From contig JAAFJE010000004.1 of NCBI GenBank assembly GCA_013298025.1, forward strand, positions 1-64,000: a DNA stretch of 64,000 nt, in the 5' to 3' direction. How positions within the stretch are numbered: the first letter of the stretch is position 1; the number at the start of each line of letters is the position of its first letter. A program made the position numbers and the translations under genes. This stretch comes from Cytophagales bacterium. Lineage in GTDB: Bacteria > Bacteroidota > Bacteroidia > Cytophagales > Spirosomataceae. Below the pieces are notes generated by a model. The model was not told the DNA's origin and searched no databases. It saw nothing but the letters and a program-made list of their open reading frames with translations. This document shows, in pieces, positions 11,799 to 51,905 of this stretch.

Positions 11799-12356
11799 AT
11801 GAGTTTTGCCTATAAAATAAATAACCCAAGAGGAACATATTTTATCACCTTTGCTACTGTTCAATGGGTTGATGCTTTTACCAGAAAGCGTTATGTTGAT
11901 ATTGTGTTGGAAAGTATAAAGTATTGCCAAAAAGAAAAAGGTTTACGGATTCACGCTTGGTGTATTATGTCTAATCATGTCCATTTAATTGCCTCAACAC
12001 TTCATCCTAAACCTACGTTATCCGATATTTTACGAGACCTTAAAAAATTTACTTCTAATAAAATCTTGGACGCTATTCAAGATGAACAAGAAATAGAAAG
12101 TAGAAAAGGCTGGATGCTGTGGTTGTTTAGAAGTGCAGGAGAGCGTAATCCCAACAATACATTTTTTCAATTCTGGCGACAAGACAATCATCCAGAAGAA
12201 ATCTTCTCAGCAAAGTTTATGGAAAGTAAACTAGCTTATATTCATAATAACCCCGTAAAAGCTGGCTTAGTAGATGAACCTTGGGAATATTTGCTTTCGT
12301 CTGCAAGAGATTATATGACAGATAGAAAAGGATTATTGGAGATTGATTTTGTTTGA
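11799..12356 (+). CDS. REP-associated tyrosine transposase (RAYT, Y1/HUH family)
   Basis: A 185-residue Y1 transposase-like protein. The HUH metal site is SNHVHLIAS (His60, His62), and the catalytic tyrosine is Tyr147 in KLAYIHNNPVKAGLV, the motif typical of RAYTs. The N-terminus (GTYFITFATVQWVDAF) also fits. RAYTs cut and join single-stranded DNA at REP hairpins and are thought to spread them. Forward hairpin elements flank it closely, at 11703-11758 and from 12369 (12 nt after the stop), both in the same orientation as the gene, so 11703-12424 could be the mobile unit. It appears intact. Nearby track ORFs with FQVFKLETA are readings of the repeats, not genes. Confidence 0.93.
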   Translation: MSFAYKINNPRGTYFITFATVQWVDAFTRKRYVDIVLESIKYCQKEKGLRIHAWCIMSNHVHLIASTLHPKPTLSDILRDLKKFTSNKILDAIQDEQEIESRKGWMLWLFRSAGERNPNNTFFQFWRQDNHPEEIFSAKFMESKLAYIHNNPVKAGLVDEPWEYLLSSARDYMTDRKGLLEIDFV

Positions 12357-13986: not shown

Positions 13987-16900
13987 TTATGCTCCTTCTA
14001 TGATTTGTATCTCTTCCTCAGTTAGTTCATATAATTGATAAACTAATTGGTCAATTTGGGCTTCTTCAGAGCTAGTATCTTTATTGTCTTGTTTCTTTGC
14101 TAAAATTGTTTCTACAAGTGAAATGATTTCTAGTTCATTATTTTTATTTGGAATGACAAGTGGAATTTGAGATAAATAAGACTTTGACAAGTTTACTGTC
14201 AAATTAGATTCGTTTGTAAATTGATTTACATAAAACCAATTTATTAACTTAGAATTTAATAATGCTAAAACAAACTTTGTTTGAACAGGACTATCTTTAT
14301 TCAAAATAATATTGTTGATTGATTCTTTATTATAAAATCCTTGATTATCGTATGCTGCTTTTAATGGTTTTGAACCACCTGTAATTCTTTGAATTAATAT
14401 TTTTTCAGGTGTTTCAAATACTTCTTTTGTTCTAGCTCTGTGAAGCAATGATGGTTCGTAATTTAGCCATTGTTTTACTTCTTGTATATGATATGCACCA
14501 ATTTCTCTACCTTCTAAAAATGGCTTCCATCCCTCTTGAGGTTTATCACTGACTACTTCATTTTTATTTTTTGTAATTACAACGCCAAATATCATTTCTT
14601 TACAAATTGAACCTAACATTTTATTAGATTTTAGTTTTCTTAAAAGGTTTGATGAATTTTCATTCGTATTTGTTGCTATAACAAACTCACTGTTAATAAT
14701 ATCTTGTTTACTAATTGTTCCAACACTGTGAGGATTCATCAATTTGACTTTGTAATCCGCAAAATTTCCTTTTGTAGCTGTAATTACAATAGCTGTTGTA
14801 ATAGCATCTTCAAAAACTCTATCCCCAAAATCAAAAATACAGTTGATGCGAGAGTTTTTTACTAAATAACGTCTTGTAGAATCATACGAGGTAACTCTTA
14901 AAAATGTATTAGGAATTATAAAAGCAAATTGTGCTGAATTTTTTAAGTTACGAAATGCTTTTTCAATGAAAAGAGTAAATAGATTTATTTTCCCACTTCC
15001 ACATTCATAATTTTCTTTATAGTAGTTTTTTTCTGTTGTTAATATTCCTTCATTTCCACCAAAAACATACGGCGGATTACCAATCACTACATCAAAACCC
15101 ACAAAATCACCTTCATCATTTAATACTTCTGGAAATTCAAAACGCCATTCAAAAGCGTTTTCATAGATTTTATTGGCTTTAATATTTTCAATTTCGCTCC
15201 CAAGCTTTTTGATTTCATCGTTGAGTTGTGCTACTCTTTTATCTCGGGCAATCTGCTCTTTTTTTTCTATCCCAAACAAGCTTTGTTGGGTAGTAAGATT
15301 GGTTAATTCGCCATTGAGAGCATAGAGTTTTTTTAGTTTAGGGTCGTTTTTAGCAATTTCACTTCTAAAATCTGATTTGATAAGCGAAATTAATCTTTCC
15401 ATTTCTCGCTTTTCTTCTTTGCTTTTGGCATTTCGGTAAGTATCAACGGCTATTTTGTAGCTATCAATCGTCCATTTACTTTTTTTGAGGGCTTGGCTCA
15501 AATCTTCGTCTATACCAAATCGACTAATGAGCGAGTTTCCACATTTAATATTAATATCAATGTTGGGAAGGGTTTCAAGTTCGGTAGCATTTTTGTAATA
15601 GGCATTTTTTAATAACTCTATCCACAAACGCAAACGGCATATTTTTACAGAATTGGGGTTAATATCAACGCCAAAAAGGCAATTTTCTATAATGCTTTGT
15701 TTTTCATGAAAAAGCGTTTCTTGAATACGCTGGCTTTCGTGATTCTTTGGATTGTATTCAAAGAGTTCGCCGTCTTCGGTTACAATCAGTTCATCATTGA
15801 CTACTTCTACTTGGTATTCTTTCAAGCGTTTGCCTGTTCTGTCTTGCAAAATTTTTAAATCATTTTTTACCGCAATCATTTCATTAAGAGCCGAAACCAA
15901 GAAATGTCCAGAACCTACAGCAGGGTCACAAATTTTGATACTATTTACAATTTGGTTGGCTTCTTTGCGGTCATCTATTTTATCGTAAAGGTCTTCTATG
16001 CTTTGGCATTGCCAGTTTTTGATTTCATTAAACTTTTGTACAACGGCTTTCCGAATGGTTTCACGGCACATATACATGGTAATAAAGCCGGGCGTAAAAA
16101 ACGAGCCATCTTTATAGCCATTGATTTTTTCAAAAATCAAACCCAATACAGAAGCATTAATTAAGGTTTTATTATCTTCTTGAATCTCCTCAGAGCCTTC
16201 ACTACTAAAATCGTAAGCATCTAAAAACGCAAAGAAATATTTTAGCGTACTTAATTTTCCTGTTTGCTTTTTGCCTTGTTCATTTTTCAACACTGTATTG
16301 CTCAAAATAGGAATCTCTCTATCATCTCGCAGATTGCTAATAAACAAGGTTTGGTGTTCGAGTTCGGTAGGTTCAAAAAGCGAACTGTTGAGATACGGTA
16401 CTTTTTCAAAAGCTTTTTTTACGTCTTGGTTTCGTTGCTCATGTTTACGAGCCAATACCTGAAAAAACAAAGAATTGAGGTCGTCATAATCTTTGATTTT
16501 ATCTAAACTTAAAAAAGCATAAGATTTATCGCCTTTGTGATAAGTAATCAATTGGGCTTCCAGTAGTTTTAAGAATAAGATTCTATTTACCCAAGTAATC
16601 GTTAATTCAAGTGCCACATTAAACAAACGTTCTTCTGTGGTAGCACCAAATTGTGAAGGTTTATCTAAACGGCTGAGTTTATCGAGGCTATCCAACTGAA
16701 TGATAGCATCTTCTAGCATCGTTCCAGTATTTCTTTCTTCTTCTTTGTTGCGTTGGATAATTTTTTTGCTTCCTTCTTTTGTTTCGGTGAGTCCGATAAT
16801 GTGTAGCAATTCGCTATAAAAGCGTTTGTCGAGGCTATTGCTATCATTTGCAAAAGGAAGTTTGAGCAAATGTTCGGGCGAGAGTACTTTAAAGAGACCA

Positions 16901-17571
16901 ATCAGCGATTTATCATCGGCTTTATCGGCATTACGTAGTGCTTTTTGGTATTCATGAATATTAAAATAAGTATATTCAAGAGAAGTTTGTAAACTACTGA
17001 TAAAAGGTTCGGCAATTTGTTTATAAAAGAAATCTGTTTTATTATCAGGTAAACGACCACTTTCAAAATCGTTGAATTGTTTTACAAAACTTTTGTTTTG
17101 GGCAAATAATCTATCGAATAGCGTAGCATCAAAAATAAACCATTCGTTAATATTGGTAGCAATGAGGTATTTTACTTCAAGATTTTTGTGGGTAATTCTT
17201 TCTCTCAAATAATAGAGTACCAATTCTTGAAAAGCCTTTGTATTTACTTTTTTTGGGGTTATCATCTCAGCCTTATTGGTAGGCTTTTTGGCTTCTATAA
17301 TTACACCTACGGTACTGTTGGCGGTATTTCCGTTATGAATCACAAGGTCGTTTCTACCTTTTGTATTGATAAAATGGTTGGGGTCATAATAGGTTTTCTT
17401 TAGGAAATCAATCACCAGATTTTTATGAAACTCTTCTGATTCAGCTTCATTCATGCTATCAATGAGGCGAATCAAATTTGTTTTAAATCCTTCGATATTA
17501 TCTCTATTCGGTTTTACTTTTAAAAAAGCTTTGTTTAATGCCTTTGTAGGTTTTAGTGCTATTAATTCCAT
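13987..17571 (-). CDS. Single-chain restriction-modification enzyme (type IIG/IIL, Eco57I-like)
   Basis: A 1194-residue protein combining nuclease, methyltransferase and target-recognition parts. The N-terminal PD-(D/E)xK site appears as RND75 and VIIE93AK95. The methylase SAM-binding motif is DPAVGSGHFL starting at residue 549, and the N6-adenine catalytic motif is NPPY at 832-835. The C-terminal quarter (FLEGREIGAYHIQ, KILIQRITGG) resembles TaqI-like specificity domains. Such enzymes methylate one strand of an asymmetric site and cut unmodified DNA. No separate methylase, specificity or BREX partner is nearby, so it is probably a solitary system. It adjoins the repeat island, consistent with an accessory locus. 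Recognition sequence is unknown. Confidence 0.9.
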   Translation of the reverse strand: MELIALKPTKALNKAFLKVKPNRDNIEGFKTNLIRLIDSMNEAESEEFHKNLVIDFLKKTYYDPNHFINTKGRNDLVIHNGNTANSTVGVIIEAKKPTNKAEMITPKKVNTKAFQELVLYYLRERITHKNLEVKYLIATNINEWFIFDATLFDRLFAQNKSFVKQFNDFESGRLPDNKTDFFYKQIAEPFISSLQTSLEYTYFNIHEYQKALRNADKADDKSLIGLFKVLSPEHLLKLPFANDSNSLDKRFYSELLHIIGLTETKEGSKKIIQRNKEEERNTGTMLEDAIIQLDSLDKLSRLDKPSQFGATTEERLFNVALELTITWVNRILFLKLLEAQLITYHKGDKSYAFLSLDKIKDYDDLNSLFFQVLARKHEQRNQDVKKAFEKVPYLNSSLFEPTELEHQTLFISNLRDDREIPILSNTVLKNEQGKKQTGKLSTLKYFFAFLDAYDFSSEGSEEIQEDNKTLINASVLGLIFEKINGYKDGSFFTPGFITMYMCRETIRKAVVQKFNEIKNWQCQSIEDLYDKIDDRKEANQIVNSIKICDPAVGSGHFLVSALNEMIAVKNDLKILQDRTGKRLKEYQVEVVNDELIVTEDGELFEYNPKNHESQRIQETLFHEKQSIIENCLFGVDINPNSVKICRLRLWIELLKNAYYKNATELETLPNIDINIKCGNSLISRFGIDEDLSQALKKSKWTIDSYKIAVDTYRNAKSKEEKREMERLISLIKSDFRSEIAKNDPKLKKLYALNGELTNLTTQQSLFGIEKKEQIARDKRVAQLNDEIKKLGSEIENIKANKIYENAFEWRFEFPEVLNDEGDFVGFDVVIGNPPYVFGGNEGILTTEKNYYKENYECGSGKINLFTLFIEKAFRNLKNSAQFAFIIPNTFLRVTSYDSTRRYLVKNSRINCIFDFGDRVFEDAITTAIVITATKGNFADYKVKLMNPHSVGTISKQDIINSEFVIATNTNENSSNLLRKLKSNKMLGSICKEMIFGVVITKNKNEVVSDKPQEGWKPFLEGREIGAYHIQEVKQWLNYEPSLLHRARTKEVFETPEKILIQRITGGSKPLKAAYDNQGFYNKESINNIILNKDSPVQTKFVLALLNSKLINWFYVNQFTNESNLTVNLSKSYLSQIPLVIPNKNNELEIISLVETILAKKQDNKDTSSEEAQIDQLVYQLYELTEEEIQIIEGA

Positions 17572-22799: not shown

Positions 22800-22847
22800 A
22801 ACATCCTATTAAAAAGATGGAGAACACAATCTTTTCAATAGGATGTT
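22800..22847 (-). terminator. Terminator of the TIGR04255 module
   Basis: AACATCCTATTAAAAAGAT (22800-22818) pairs with ATCTTTTCAATAGGATGTT (22829-22847) with one mismatch, 10-nt loop. It lies about 100 nt after the last gene of the three-gene module and before the sugar dehydrogenase gene. Confidence 0.65.
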
Positions 22848-22950: not shown

Positions 22951-23472
22951 CTATTTCGTAGTATATAAGTGTGCTGATATTTCCTCAAAAAATGGTTCTT
23001 CAAATATAGCTAAATTTATTATTCGACTTCGGGCATGTTCCCAGACCATTCTACTTTTACTTTTTGTTAATTCTTCACTGTCTTTTTCTCCAAGAAACCA
23101 TCTAATAGAGCAATGCCAATAATTTTCGACGGGTTGTTGTATAGGAGTATGTAATACTCTTGATGTTATTGTTTGATTATCATCGATTGTAGAAGTCACA
23201 ACATTGAAATCATCTAATTTTAAGAAAAAATACCACTCACATTTTAATTGTTCAAGCAAATCTGTTGGTAATGTTTTTCCTAATAGGTTTGTAGAATAAT
23301 CTCTGATATGACTGGATTGTTTTGCGACGAACTCTGATTTTAATCTTCCATATTCATCTTTTATATCCTTTGATGAAGTTCCTCGAACTAGGTAGTATGC
23401 ACCAGTGCCTTTTTGAATAACAGATAAATCTATCTGCTCAACAAAATTTTCTTCTTTTTTAAGTCTTTCCAC
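22951..23472 (-). CDS. Uncharacterised 173-aa protein, third gene of the TIGR04255 module
   Basis: I do not recognise this family. The product is soluble, with no signal peptide or membrane helix. It has a strand-helix pattern, a central CEWYFFLKLDDFNVV segment, and a conserved-looking C-terminal part (NYWHCSIRWFLGEKD, RMVWEHARSRIINLAIFEEPFFEE). No catalytic motif is evident. It follows the 141-aa gene by 12 nt and ends the module. The DNA is more AT-rich than the flanking metabolic genes, hinting at acquisition. Role can only be guessed through its neighbours. Confidence 0.75.
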   Translation of the reverse strand: MERLKKEENFVEQIDLSVIQKGTGAYYLVRGTSSKDIKDEYGRLKSEFVAKQSSHIRDYSTNLLGKTLPTDLLEQLKCEWYFFLKLDDFNVVTSTIDDNQTITSRVLHTPIQQPVENYWHCSIRWFLGEKDSEELTKSKSRMVWEHARSRIINLAIFEEPFFEEISAHLYTTK

Positions 23473-23484
23473 GTAAAAAATATT

Positions 23485-23910
23485 TTAGCTATTTATTAGC
23501 TTCAAAAAAGCATTTTCTAATGCTCCGTGATAATTAAATAAGTGTCTTTTATCTTGATAAACATTCAAAAAGCATTCATAGCCGTCTGAAAGCTCCTCAT
23601 CAAAATAAATTGCTAAAAAATAGTTTTTGTTATTGAAATTAGCCTTAATAAGATAACTTTCTTCTGGAGTTTTCTCAAAAGTTATTTTATCCGATTGTGT
23701 GAGAACAAGAAAGGAAACTAAGTTCCCAACAATTTTATGCTTCACGTTAATATCACTATCAGATTTAGTAAGAATTTTGGTGAAATCTTCTGTGTATTTA
23801 ATCGTCTTTTTTATATTACTACTTGCCTGCTGAATGTCAATAGCATCTTTTTTACGAAATTTTGACTCGTAATAATATGCTGGGGGTTGAGGTGGTAGGG
23901 AGGCTGTCAT
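23485..23910 (-). CDS. Uncharacterised 141-aa protein, second gene of the TIGR04255 module
   Basis: No family recognised. The N-terminus is proline-rich (ASLPPQPPAYYYESKF), followed by a helical region (DIQQASSNIKKTIKYTEDFTKIL) and a strand-rich C-terminal half (KNYFLAIYFDEELSDGYECFLNVY). There is no signal peptide. Its start codon lies one base from the stop of the TIGR04255 gene, so translation is probably coupled and the two proteins may act together. Confidence 0.75.
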   Translation of the reverse strand: MTASLPPQPPAYYYESKFRKKDAIDIQQASSNIKKTIKYTEDFTKILTKSDSDINVKHKIVGNLVSFLVLTQSDKITFEKTPEESYLIKANFNNKNYFLAIYFDEELSDGYECFLNVYQDKRHLFNYHGALENAFLKLINS

Positions 23911-23911
23911 A

Positions 23912-24625
23912 TCAATAAATAGGATTTAATGTTGTTAAGAAAGAGTCTTTGAGTAGTGAAAAAAATACCTTTTTCTCTATCTCATGAATATCCCCAATAG
24001 TGTTAATTAATTCAGCTATTGAGTTTACACTTGGTTGCCGTTGAATAATATCTATATCTATGATAGAACCAACTCTTGGAGTATTAGTAGATTCTGAATC
24101 CACAACACCCCCACCATTTAACAAGTTCAAGAGAACTATTTTATTATCAATTGTAAATTCAAACTTTGACTGCCCTTTAATTCTATTATTGGTAAAACCC
24201 AACTGAATGGTCGCATTTATGTGTTCATAAATATAAATGTCATCAAAATTACTAATGTATCTTACCCCTATTTGGTTAATTTTTTCGATGAGTTTTTCAT
24301 TGAAAAGCGGTGTTAAATAATTAATTATATTTTTTTGATATACATCCCAACCTTTATATCCATTGAGTAAATCAAAAGTGATGGAGTTATCTTGAATTAC
24401 AATAGTAAAGTTATCATCTTCAGTTATTATAATCGGTGCTGATTCTTCCACTCCAATTATCTTACCATTTGATAATATTGGCGTTCTTTGTGGTAAGAAC
24501 TTTAGTTTTTCTTTGAAGATTGAGTGAAAATAACCTAAAATAGTACCAAAAGGTAATAGTGAATCAAACTGAATTTGAACTATTGAGTTTTTAAGTCTAT
24601 CGTCTATTTTTCTTGGAATTTTCAT
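23912..24625 (-). CDS. TIGR04255-family protein
   Basis: A 237-residue protein whose C-terminal half carries the hallmark of the sporadically distributed TIGR04255 family (NQIGVRYISNF, with a preceding long helix LTPLFNEKLIEKI). Function is unknown; the family is patchy across bacteria. I chose ATG 24625 (MKIPRKIDDRLKNS); the track start lies 17 codons upstream in a repeated, promoter-like stretch. It is the first gene of a three-gene unit with two unknown proteins, and the unit sits between the sugar dehydrogenase and methylmalonyl-CoA mutase genes. Confidence 0.78.
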   Translation of the reverse strand: MKIPRKIDDRLKNSIVQIQFDSLLPFGTILGYFHSIFKEKLKFLPQRTPILSNGKIIGVEESAPIIITEDDNFTIVIQDNSITFDLLNGYKGWDVYQKNIINYLTPLFNEKLIEKINQIGVRYISNFDDIYIYEHINATIQLGFTNNRIKGQSKFEFTIDNKIVLLNLLNGGGVVDSESTNTPRVGSIIDIDIIQRQPSVNSIAELINTIGDIHEIEKKVFFSLLKDSFLTTLNPIY

Positions 24626-24629
24626 CGTG

Positions 24630-24670
24630 TACGCAAAATAAATATTGTATGTGCAAAATAAATACATACA
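24630..24670 (-). promoter_or_regulatory. Tandem repeat in the promoter region of the TIGR04255 module
   Basis: GCAAAATAAATA occurs twice (about 24633 and 24653). On the minus strand these read TATTTATTTTGC, close to the -7 motif. Promoter or operator use is inference. Confidence 0.35.
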
Positions 24671-24736
24671 CAACACTGTACGAAATTAAATCACTCTTAT
24701 TTTGAGTAATGACAAGCATCAATTAGGACATAGAGA

Positions 24737-24772
24737 GATGCGGCAACCCACAGACGTGGCATTGCCACGTCT
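24737..24772. repeat. GTAGAGACG-type palindromic repeat at the mutB stop
   Basis: AGACGTGGCA (24752-24761) and TGCCACGTCT (24763-24772) form a perfect hairpin flanked by TAGAGAGA on one side and CTCTAC on the other. Similar GTAGAGACG...CGTCTCTAC palindromes are, to my knowledge, common interspersed repeats in Bacteroidota and cyanobacteria. It touches the mutB stop codon and may also terminate transcription. It is unrelated to the 11-13 kb hairpins. Confidence 0.55.
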
Positions 24773-41391: not shown

Positions 41392-41943
41392 TTAATGACA
41401 AATTGCGTCTAAATCGCAAGTGTCTGTTTGAGAATCGTTTGAGATATAATTACGTATTTTGTTTTGTGGAATTTTTCTGGGATTGGTCGGGACTTTAAAT
41501 AAAGGAACTGATGAGTACAATATTGGAATAAACTCAGGTTTAACTTCTTCAAAATCCGCTTGAAACATCCGTTGGGCAGTACTTACGATAAAATTTGCAA
41601 ATATTTTTCCTGCTTCAATTTGGTCTGCACTATTGCCTTTATTGCCTGATTTAAGGTTGCAGATAATGACAAATAGCCTATCTTTTTTTACATAAAAAAG
41701 GATAAAATCAGCCATACTTTTTACACCAGAAATATCATTCAAGAAAGGAAGTTTATCTTTTATTTCTTGCCCATTTTTCTTGGGAAATTTATCAAACTTA
41801 TACACTAAAACATCGCCCGTTTTTTGGATTTTAGCTTTAGCACATTTGGCTTTTTTGTTATCTTCTCTGAGTTCAAATACATCTCCAGATACATTTTCCT
41901 TGTATCCAGAGAATATCATTTCTTCGATACGTTGTAGAATCAT
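41392..41943 (-). CDS. Small partner of the AAA ATPase, possible degenerate PD-(D/E)xK fold
   Basis: A 183-residue soluble protein I cannot name. The middle shows strand SMADFILFYVKKDRLFVIICNLKSGNKGN followed by a Gln-containing helix (ADQIEAGKIFANFIV). The layout Asp79...[Asn96]-x-Lys98...Gln108 resembles a PD-(D/E)xK nuclease core (often ELKS in such partners), but with Asn where Glu is expected, so catalysis is doubtful. It begins 2 nt after the AAA ATPase stop, typical of a toxin/effector and sensor ATPase pair in defence systems. Function is inference only. Confidence 0.72.
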   Translation of the reverse strand: MILQRIEEMIFSGYKENVSGDVFELREDNKKAKCAKAKIQKTGDVLVYKFDKFPKKNGQEIKDKLPFLNDISGVKSMADFILFYVKKDRLFVIICNLKSGNKGNSADQIEAGKIFANFIVSTAQRMFQADFEEVKPEFIPILYSSVPLFKVPTNPRKIPQNKIRNYISNDSQTDTCDLDAICH

Positions 41944-41945
41944 GG

Positions 41946-43364
41946 TTAATCAAAAAGGGTAAAAAAGATTTCTTCTGAGGCATTATTCAAATGATTAATT
42001 TCCTCGTCAATCGTATTTACTTCAAAACCAGTTTCAGATACTTCTATAGTATGATTTTTGTTGTTTTTGAAAAGATAAGCTCCAATTCTATGATAATCAA
42101 TTAATTGACTTTCTTTATAGCCATATTTGTCGATTAATGGTTTTGCTTTTTCTCCGCCTGATTTTAGCATGATTAAATTATTGATTTCTCGAATAATATA
42201 ATCACTGTGTGTACTAATCATCACTTTAAAGCCGTGATTGATGATTTCTCCGATGAGCCGAGCTACTTTCCGCTGGTTATCAGGGTGAAGGTTTAATTCG
42301 GGTTCATCAATAATGATAAAATCGCCTTTCTGAGCCAAATGTCTAAAGTAAAACACTAAATTAGCAAGCGACTTCACAATGGAAGCCGTTAGGTGAATGC
42401 TAAGGTTTTTTGCTTTTGATTTATGAGGGCTGTATTGTACTTCTCCTTCTTTGGACGTAGTAATTTTTCCATCTAAAAGAACCTCTTCGATTCTATCAGC
42501 TAAGAAACCATATTCACTTTTATGTCGAGATAAATTGGCTAAATCTTCGGCAATGGCTAAACTATCACGAATGGGAAGCGGATAGCGTTGAAGTTTACCA
42601 ATTAATTGATTGATATTGCCGTTTTTCGTATCTCTTACTTCTAATAATTTGTCAATAATCGTGTTTCGCTTGATAGATAATTCTTTACTAAAAATGTTGA
42701 TGGCACTTCTCTCGGCAGTATTGATATAAATGGTTTTGATGTAAAAATCAAGAATATGCTCAGTGAGTAAACCTGTGATACTCATCCCTAAGTGTTCAAG
42801 GAAAGAATTATGAAGGAAATCATCGGTATGACCATCAGTAAGAACATTGATATAAATAAACTCGTCGTTTTCTTTCTTTGAAATGTTGATGTTATTTTTT
42901 GAAGGAAAGGAAAAATAAGTGTCTTCTTGAAAAAAGATTTTTTTCCCCTTGATAAAATCTTGTAATTCTTTTGTATCAACAGCAATCTCTAGCTGAGATT
43001 TTTCAAAATTGGCTTGCTCCGCAGCAAATATATGAGGAAGTTGAGCTGGAAAGATTATTTTAATATGTTCCCAGATTATATCCAGCATTTTCTCAACAAG
43101 GGTATCAATATTTATTTTACACTCAAGAGGGTTGTTTTTCGTTTCCGCATTGAGTAGCGTTGAAATAGTATTATCAATATCAATTTTAGTGAAAAGGTTT
43201 AAAAGAGTCCTTCTATTGTCTTTTAGCGTATCAAAAAAGCCATAAACCGTATAAGCCGCATACGTTTTACCCGTGTTGTTGGGACCAGCCAAAATGATTA
43301 AATCTTTCGATAAATCCATTTCTGCTTGTTTGAGTGTACCGATATTTTTTAGCTTTAATTTCAT
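41946..43364 (-). CDS. AAA family ATPase (OLD/SMC-like, AAA_15 type)
   Basis: A 472-residue ABC-class ATPase. Walker A is GPNNTGKT at residues 27-34 after KLKNIGTLKQAEMDLSKD, Walker B is FIIIDEPELNLHP, and the switch region is KVMISTHSDYII. The middle (about residues 60-340) is helical and would form the SMC-like arm. No TOPRIM domain is visible, unlike OLD nucleases. ATPases of this type drive several antiphage systems with a separate effector. Here the effector candidate is the 183-aa protein 2 nt downstream. The pair is embedded between murB (9 nt) and kdsA (8 nt). Confidence 0.88.
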   Translation of the reverse strand: MKLKLKNIGTLKQAEMDLSKDLIILAGPNNTGKTYAAYTVYGFFDTLKDNRRTLLNLFTKIDIDNTISTLLNAETKNNPLECKINIDTLVEKMLDIIWEHIKIIFPAQLPHIFAAEQANFEKSQLEIAVDTKELQDFIKGKKIFFQEDTYFSFPSKNNINISKKENDEFIYINVLTDGHTDDFLHNSFLEHLGMSITGLLTEHILDFYIKTIYINTAERSAINIFSKELSIKRNTIIDKLLEVRDTKNGNINQLIGKLQRYPLPIRDSLAIAEDLANLSRHKSEYGFLADRIEEVLLDGKITTSKEGEVQYSPHKSKAKNLSIHLTASIVKSLANLVFYFRHLAQKGDFIIIDEPELNLHPDNQRKVARLIGEIINHGFKVMISTHSDYIIREINNLIMLKSGGEKAKPLIDKYGYKESQLIDYHRIGAYLFKNNKNHTIEVSETGFEVNTIDEEINHLNNASEEIFFTLFD

Positions 43365-50341: not shown

Positions 50342-50612
50342 TCTAAGCACCAATTGAACCGTTTTTGGGAATATTTGTTTAAAAGTACAGTGTGTGGCTT
50401 ATCCCGATTTATTTAGGGTCTTTATTTATTGAATCTAAGTTTTCAGAAACCACAATAACTGTAATAAAGTTTATTTTTAAATACTACTTTTACTAATACT
50501 GAATGTTAAATATAGATTTATAGTTATTATTTTATATTGTTAATTTAAAATAATGCCCATAATTATAAAATTATCTATCTTTACTGAATAAATAGGTTTG
50601 AGAATTAGTGAT

Positions 50613-51905
50613 ATGTTTAGAGAAAAAATAAATGAGTTAGCCCATTGGAAAACGAAGTCCACCAGAAAACCACTCGTTTTGAACGGAGCAAGACAAGTGG
50701 GCAAATCTTGGTTGGTTCAAAAATTTGGTGAAAGCTTTTTTTCTGGAAAAGTAATCACTATCAATTTTGAAAAAAGAAGAGATTTACACATCATTTTTAA
50801 AACCAATTTTGATGTCAATAGAATACTTTTAGAGTTAGAATTTGCTTTAGGAATCAAGATTGACCCTGAAAATGACTTACTTTTTTTTGATGAGATTCAG
50901 GCTTGTGCTGATGCTTTGGGGAGCTTGCGATATTTTTATGAAGATAAACCCGCTTTGCATTTGATTGCGGCAGGTTCATTATTAGACTTTGAATTTAGAA
51001 ATCAGCCTTTTCCTGTTGGACGGGTAGAAGTAATGAGTCTTTCGCCCATGACATTCTATGAGTTTCTATTGGCAAGAAAAAGAGAAACTGTGGCTAATTT
51101 TCTCAAAGAAAAACCAAGTATTTTACCCGAAATCGTTAGTAATATTTTAAATGATGAACTGAATAATTACTTCGTGGTTGGCGGAATGCCCGAATGTGTG
51201 CAATGTTTTGTGGATAGTCAAAACCTCAATGAAGTACAGGAGATTCAAGATAATTTATTGTACGCTTACGAGCAGGATTTCAAAAAGTATAAGCCTACGG
51301 TGGATGGCGACGCACTGAATGATATTTTAGAAAAAAGTGCCTTGCTGATAAGTAATCAGATTATTTATACGCATTTGTCAGAGCGTTTTTCAAGTCCGAC
51401 TATTAAAAAAGGAGTTGAAGTATTACGCACCGCTCGTTTATTGAATGCCGTTCAGAATGTTTCGATTACGGGTTTGCCACTTACGCTTTCGGGCAAACAG
51501 TTCAAATTGTTTCATCTTGATATAGGTTTATTGTTACGAAAAAGTAAATTGTCTTTTCAAGATATTTACTTGAAAAAGAACCTTTCGGCGGCTTTTAATG
51601 GCATGTTGGCAGAGCAGTTTGTAGCACAGCAAATGATTGCTAATCAAAAAGATGAGCTTTGTTATTGGGCAAGAACCAGCCCGGGCAGTAGTGCAGAAGT
51701 AGATTTTATTATTGTTAGAGAAGGACAAATTATTCCGATAGAAGTAAAGTCGGGGAGAAGTGGTTCTTTAAAAAGTTTACATTATTTATTAGAACATCAT
51801 CCGCACATTACTAAAGCTATTATTTTTTCAAATGCTCCTTTTGGAATTAACGAAAAACTCCATTTTATACCGATATTTTGGGCAGGGAATTACAGTGCCG
51901 TGTAG
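50613..51905 (+). CDS. AAA_14 ATPase with C-terminal DUF4143 domain
   Basis: A 430-residue ATPase. Walker A is NGARQVGKSWL near the N-terminus, Walker B is LLFFDEIQACADAL, and sensor 1 is LIAAGSLLDFEF. The C-terminal DUF4143 domain ends with AEVDFIIVREGQIIPIEVKSG, a PD-(D/E)xK-like core with Asp, Glu and Lys in place. Such proteins are widespread, often in many copies per genome, and have no firm function; an archaeal/bacterial stand-alone STAND-like role or mobile-element origin has been suggested. The track begins at TTG; ATG 50613 (MFREKINEL) is preferred. It is monocistronic. Confidence 0.9.
   Translation: MFREKINELAHWKTKSTRKPLVLNGARQVGKSWLVQKFGESFFSGKVITINFEKRRDLHIIFKTNFDVNRILLELEFALGIKIDPENDLLFFDEIQACADALGSLRYFYEDKPALHLIAAGSLLDFEFRNQPFPVGRVEVMSLSPMTFYEFLLARKRETVANFLKEKPSILPEIVSNILNDELNNYFVVGGMPECVQCFVDSQNLNEVQEIQDNLLYAYEQDFKKYKPTVDGDALNDILEKSALLISNQIIYTHLSERFSSPTIKKGVEVLRTARLLNAVQNVSITGLPLTLSGKQFKLFHLDIGLLLRKSKLSFQDIYLKKNLSAAFNGMLAEQFVAQQMIANQKDELCYWARTSPGSSAEVDFIIVREGQIIPIEVKSGRSGSLKSLHYLLEHHPHITKAIIFSNAPFGINEKLHFIPIFWAGNYSAV

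Follow-up and report, generated by a model that had tools for sequence, protein, structure and literature searches.

A 64,000-nucleotide stretch of a Cytophagales bacterium genome (the window; forward strand of contig JAAFJE010000004.1, positions 1 to 64,000, assembly GCA_013298025.1) carries three genes, A, B and C, arranged head to tail on the minus strand (Table 1). An earlier annotation made from the sequence alone (the original prediction) had described them as a self-contained, AT-rich cassette containing a TIGR04255 gene. All three open reading frames were confirmed, and the predicted lengths of B and C and the 1-nt gap between A and B were borne out; B and C are separated by 12 nt. By profile match, A is a clear member of NCBIfam TIGR04255 (sporadTIGR04255), scoring 81.2 bits against a cut-off of 30 (1e-22, residues 11–234 on profile positions 7–252), and is the single copy in the genome. 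The GC content of the module is 29.9% compared to 39.8% for the window, with 1.3% of equal-sized stretches being this low. The sole other stretch as GC-poor, at ~13–15.8 kb, includes part of a type IIG restriction gene. The anticipated terminator was found as a strong hairpin downstream of C. A repeated promoter region had also been proposed; two repeat copies do precede the ATG of A, but this is a short two-copy repeat and its function as promoter or operator is only possible. The palindrome between the upstream mutase gene and the module is present once in the genome and is not a genomic repeat. No tRNA or Rfam RNA was found in the 64-kb window.

Table 1. Features of the A-B-C module and of other loci in the window (aa, amino acids; TBP, TATA-binding protein).
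Feature	Position	Strand	Description
Gene A	23912..24625	(-)	TIGR04255 protein, 237 aa, ATG at 24625; predicted two-lobed TBP-like/helix-grip fold
Gene B	23485..23910	(-)	141 aa; variable N-terminal leader and conserved C-terminal domain; candidate antitoxin or connector
Gene C	22951..23472	(-)	173 aa; motif S-x-N-L-L-G and H-x-P-x(n)-N-[YF]-W-H; candidate toxin/effector
Terminator-like hairpin, strong	22800..22847	(-)	19+ bp, 104 nt past C, followed by U-rich sequence; region z -3.06
Two 20-nt direct repeats, 80% identical	24624..24663	(-)	Directly upstream of the ATG of A; possible promoter/operator
Perfect 10-bp palindrome	24752..24772	(.)	Between mutase gene and module; probably mutase terminator stem
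Type IIG restriction enzyme-methyltransferase	13987..17571	(-)	1194 aa, E 3e-244; 32% GC; ~5.4 kb from the module
PD-T4-4-like pair	41392..43364	(-)	472-aa ATPase (PD-T4-4_A, E 1e-104) and 183-aa protein (PD-T4-4_B, E 6e-16); 32–33% GC
PDC-S01-like ATPase	50598..51905	(+)	435 aa, phage-defence candidate, E 1e-128
REP-associated (Y1-type) transposase-like protein	11799..12356	(+)	185 aa, assigned by eye; 34% GC; no PADLOC match

Two start codons were reconsidered. The 254-aa form of A given in the original prediction is probably wrong. Its closest relatives begin MKIPRKIDDRLK or MKLPRKIDDRLK, so that translation most likely starts at the ATG listed in Table 1, and the longer form takes in the promoter region. 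The start of C may be ATT 23481 rather than GTG 23472, relatives beginning M-x-YPERLL. Searches of all three proteins against Pfam, NCBIfam, PHROGs and PADLOC returned only TIGR04255 and phrog_5464, a phage family of unknown function, both for A; no PADLOC system model was matched. A sub-significant AbiEii match of A in PADLOC (E 0.0076) was judged to be due to chance, as were matches to Homez and MrpA. Profiles of A and C had no match among the sequences of solved structures.

Conservation of the three-gene unit was assessed at 63 TIGR04255 loci, sampled at the levels of family, order and phylum. At 58 of the 63, A is followed by a small B and then by C on one strand, and adjacent genes mostly overlap or lie a few nucleotides from each other. 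Members of the B and C families present in the window accompany A in at least seven other genomes. Across 223 genomes of the family, a C profile search returned seven copies, six of them in genomes that also encode TIGR04255; the seventh copy lies where a contig begins and is preceded by B, the place of A being off the contig. TIGR04255 itself is sporadic, being present in 11 of the 223; across bacteria the cassette is widespread, though patchy in occurrence. As gene order is conserved, the module is more than a chance association, and the description as a cassette stands; the contrary outcome considered alongside it, that the three genes are together nowhere else, is contradicted by the trios found in other genomes. 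A divergent TIGR04255 subfamily at three loci of one Bacteroidota family lacks C and could have a different role.

The C proteins across these loci fall into a dozen groups. Pfam searches of the C position identified three PemK/MazF proteins (2e-14), three HEPN proteins (1e-8) and one DUF7689 protein (2e-40); the remainder belong to unassigned families, among them the window's group and a large 'SQSCDL/NTCD' group. The commonest C group, noted at five loci, has a strongly conserved 'SQSCDL ... LLPPYREHLSQAFARYFMRVGLP' signature with no Pfam or NCBIfam match and is a likely undescribed toxin family. Mapped onto a maximum-likelihood tree of A, C type requires at least 17 changes, against a minimum possible of 11; the SQSCDL type occurs in five separate places and the NYWH type in at least four. 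B type tracks C type, mutual information being 1.76 versus a shuffled maximum of 1.17. C type thus jumps on the A tree and B follows C, indicating that A is fixed and that B and C are replaced jointly. In some related modules, the C protein has a match to PDC-M32B, a phage-defence candidate.

Links to phages and plasmids, which the original prediction had suggested looking for, were found among related modules. Relatives adjoin integrases at four loci and lie within a prophage at another (genes named by visual inspection of the sequences). Plasmids of Phocaeicola, Thermus and Methylocystis, as well as Pseudomonas phage Dobby, carry TIGR04255 modules of other C types; on the Methylocystis plasmid, the module follows an abortive-infection gene at a distance of a few hundred bases. 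No copy of the window's C subtype was found among plasmids, phages and viral contigs. The module sits at a synteny break in its own genome. All four congeners lack it and have a SUI1 gene after the mutase gene instead, and the SUI1 gene of this genome is ~160 kb away on the same contig. The host falls within the family that includes Dyadobacter, since one genome of that family encodes the very proteins of Dyadobacter sp. CY261. A-B-C is a conserved, mobile, modular unit in which the last two genes are swapped together and the final one belongs, in several lineages, to a known RNase toxin family. An ordinary accessory or regulatory operon of some metabolic role, with no link to conflict, would accord with the flanking genes (a methylmalonyl-CoA mutase and a sugar-dehydrogenase-like gene) and with a window copy that has no known toxin family. 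The sporadic distribution, rapid divergence, replacement by MazF, HEPN and Panacea (described below) and mobile context make this highly improbable.

Because a constant TIGR04255 protein pairs with exchangeable partners, among them known RNA-cutting toxins at related loci, a hitherto unrecognized three-part toxin–antitoxin or phage-defence module is most likely. Our preferred reading, to which we assign a probability of roughly 0.52, is a tripartite toxin–antitoxin-like conflict module akin to toxin–antitoxin–SecB-like chaperone (TAC) systems, which include the anti-phage CmdTAC; C would be the toxin, B the antitoxin or connector and A a stabilizer or sensor. The module is possibly anti-phage. 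The toxicity of C is suggested by its replacement with MazF/PemK and HEPN proteins at homologous loci. B, whose core changes with C and which bears an N-terminal leader, would be the cognate antitoxin or connector that neutralizes C. A, the constant component, would act as a two-lobed TBP-like clamp on the B leader, holding B in a folded or stable state much like the SecB-like chaperones of TAC. Were A lost or titrated away, for instance by a phage protein, C would be freed and the cell arrested.

Alignment of the B family separated the variable leader from the conserved domain. HEPN-type B proteins encoded beside TIGR04255 are 161–192 aa long and have an N-terminal leader (n = 4); a TIGR04255-B-HEPN arrangement is present on the Thermus plasmid. 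The partners of module-like HEPN proteins in Gloeothece, with no TIGR04255, are 118–119 aa and without leader (n = 2, one genus). One MazF pair lacking TIGR04255 includes a partner of 87 aa whose acidic tail is similar; TIGR04255-free two-gene relatives are known from Gloeothece and Planktothrix. The parallel between this leader and chaperone addiction is suggestive, drawn from few loci. A general hydrophobic leader serving as chaperone-binding site was rejected, the leaders not being consistently hydrophobic. When the window's B was compared by profile with most other B types, a single common B core was not supported.

The first position of the module is also variable in more distant relatives. 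In TIGR04255-free genomes, a B-like gene still lies ahead of relatives of the window's C, and another small protein is encoded further out. This is a DUF3467-like protein of ~115 aa at four loci, of which one reaches Pfam E 0.001, below the curated cut-off; these proteins are possibly an analogous stabilizer. At a further locus the first slot holds a 199-aa protein of an unassigned family. At locus L102, the gene before the C relative encodes a fusion of a Panacea domain (PF13274, E 2e-14) and a B domain of the window type, and directly adjoins a tyrosine integrase. Panacea, absent from the window operon, is an experimentally established, hyperpromiscuous antitoxin domain (PMC8832971). Its occurrence in the place of A would fit an alternative in which A is itself an antitoxin or an infection sensor and keeps C inactive by direct action, with B as a linker matching constant A to variable C. 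The constancy of A and the position of B, always between A and C and tracking C, are in keeping with this. However, B-like cores with HEPN and the short partner with MazF, both free of TIGR04255, suggest that B is able to control C unaided, and we consider a directly inhibitory A unlikely.

An AlphaFold2 model of A (predicted local distance difference test, pLDDT, 88.7; predicted TM-score, pTM, 0.85) has a beta-alpha-beta(n)-alpha pattern in either half. In a Foldseek search of the PDB, the 20 best matches were all TBPs (E 9e-5 to 8e-4); full-length TM-scores were only ~0.3, and the match at E 9e-5 extended across 229 columns with a value of 0.30. A is therefore assigned a TBP-like or helix-grip topology rather than being called a TBP. 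SecB was absent from the 50 Foldseek matches listed. This fold raises a further alternative, in which a TBP-like saddle in A would bind nucleic acid (phage DNA, an RNA–DNA hybrid or its own operator) and relay the signal via B to effector C. The ranking of TBPs is consistent with such a role, as is the occurrence of a TBP-like domain in fusions with HEPN RNase LS proteins and in RNase HIII, where it binds DNA–RNA hybrids (PMC3710099). The low TM-score, the lack of sequence similarity between the two halves of A and the use of the helix-grip fold in roles other than nucleic acid binding all argue against it, and we rate nucleic acid sensing as rather less probable still than direct inhibition of C by A.

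The AlphaFold2 model of the window's C is of high confidence (pLDDT 92.2, pTM 0.88), and searches of the PDB and BFVD gave no match better than E 0.27. The C group to which it belongs shares the motif H-x-P-x(n)-N-[YF]-x-H, with two histidines, His108 and His120, invariant across 22 relatives, which would be in keeping with an enzyme or metal site. This protein, whose structure is predicted with confidence and is unlike anything solved, is one candidate for a new toxin. A more ambitious proposal, which we hold tentatively and at shorter odds than either alternative for A, is that TIGR04255 would be a bacterial two-lobed TBP-like clamp acting, via the antitoxin leader, as a universal third component over at least half a dozen unrelated toxin families, and that the window's C would represent a new toxin fold with an HxP...NYWH signature. 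If true, this would provide a function for a curated but unexplained bacterial family, whose family model carries none, and a type of third component other than SecB in tripartite toxin–antitoxin systems. TIGR04255 genes could also serve as bait for new toxins, since A is constant while the toxins are exchanged. In the literature searched (without subscription journals and preprints), TIGR04255 was named in no paper, and the present arrangement was not found described in work on TBP-like folds, Panacea or tripartite toxin–antitoxin systems.

Several points weigh against the tripartite toxin–antitoxin reading. The window's C has no Pfam, NCBIfam or PADLOC match, known toxin families (PemK, HEPN) being seen only at related loci; with no known toxin family and no fold match, its proposed toxicity rests on slot-swapping. 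One of its loops also lacks ~30 aa present in its nearest relatives, and the link between its subtype and the broader LYRR subtype derives from iterative hidden Markov models in a small set together with a shared motif. The B leader is not uniformly hydrophobic, and the leader argument draws on the four loci with A and the two without, the latter from one genus. A could itself be the antitoxin. Finally, the constant protein is TIGR04255, with a predicted TBP-like fold, and not SecB.

The original prediction had also called the module isolated. This holds locally, where the flanking genes are metabolic, but not for the window as a whole, which also contains a type IIG restriction-modification gene, a PD-T4-4-like pair and a PDC-S01-like gene (Table 1). 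The first two are less than 20 kb from the module and the last is further off. The PD-T4-4-like pair stands among housekeeping genes. A REP-associated transposase-like gene is also present in the window.

The module resembles several known systems in part. A shares a two-lobed helix-grip topology with TBPs, its best Foldseek matches, but is bacterial, has no sequence similarity to them and aligns with a low TM-score. With HEPN and MazF/PemK type II pairs, homologous modules share HEPN and PemK proteins, which take the C position; the window's C differs in matching neither HEPN nor PemK nor any PDB fold. Like PanAT systems, the module combines a constant antitoxin-side domain with many unrelated toxins, and at L102 Panacea replaces TIGR04255 before the same C family. 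It differs from PanAT in that the window has no Panacea and B is a separate gene. The likeness to TAC lies in three tightly linked genes, exchangeable toxin–antitoxin pairs and a constant third protein. The TAC antitoxin carries an extra chaperone-binding segment that underlies chaperone addiction (PMC5105189), and a comparable extension of B is apparently present when the third gene is present. In contrast to TAC, the gene for the constant protein comes first, B carries its extra segment at the N terminus rather than the C terminus, and the toxin types differ. As its constant protein is not SecB, we class the A-B-C module as a new variant of tripartite toxin–antitoxin modules rather than as TAC.
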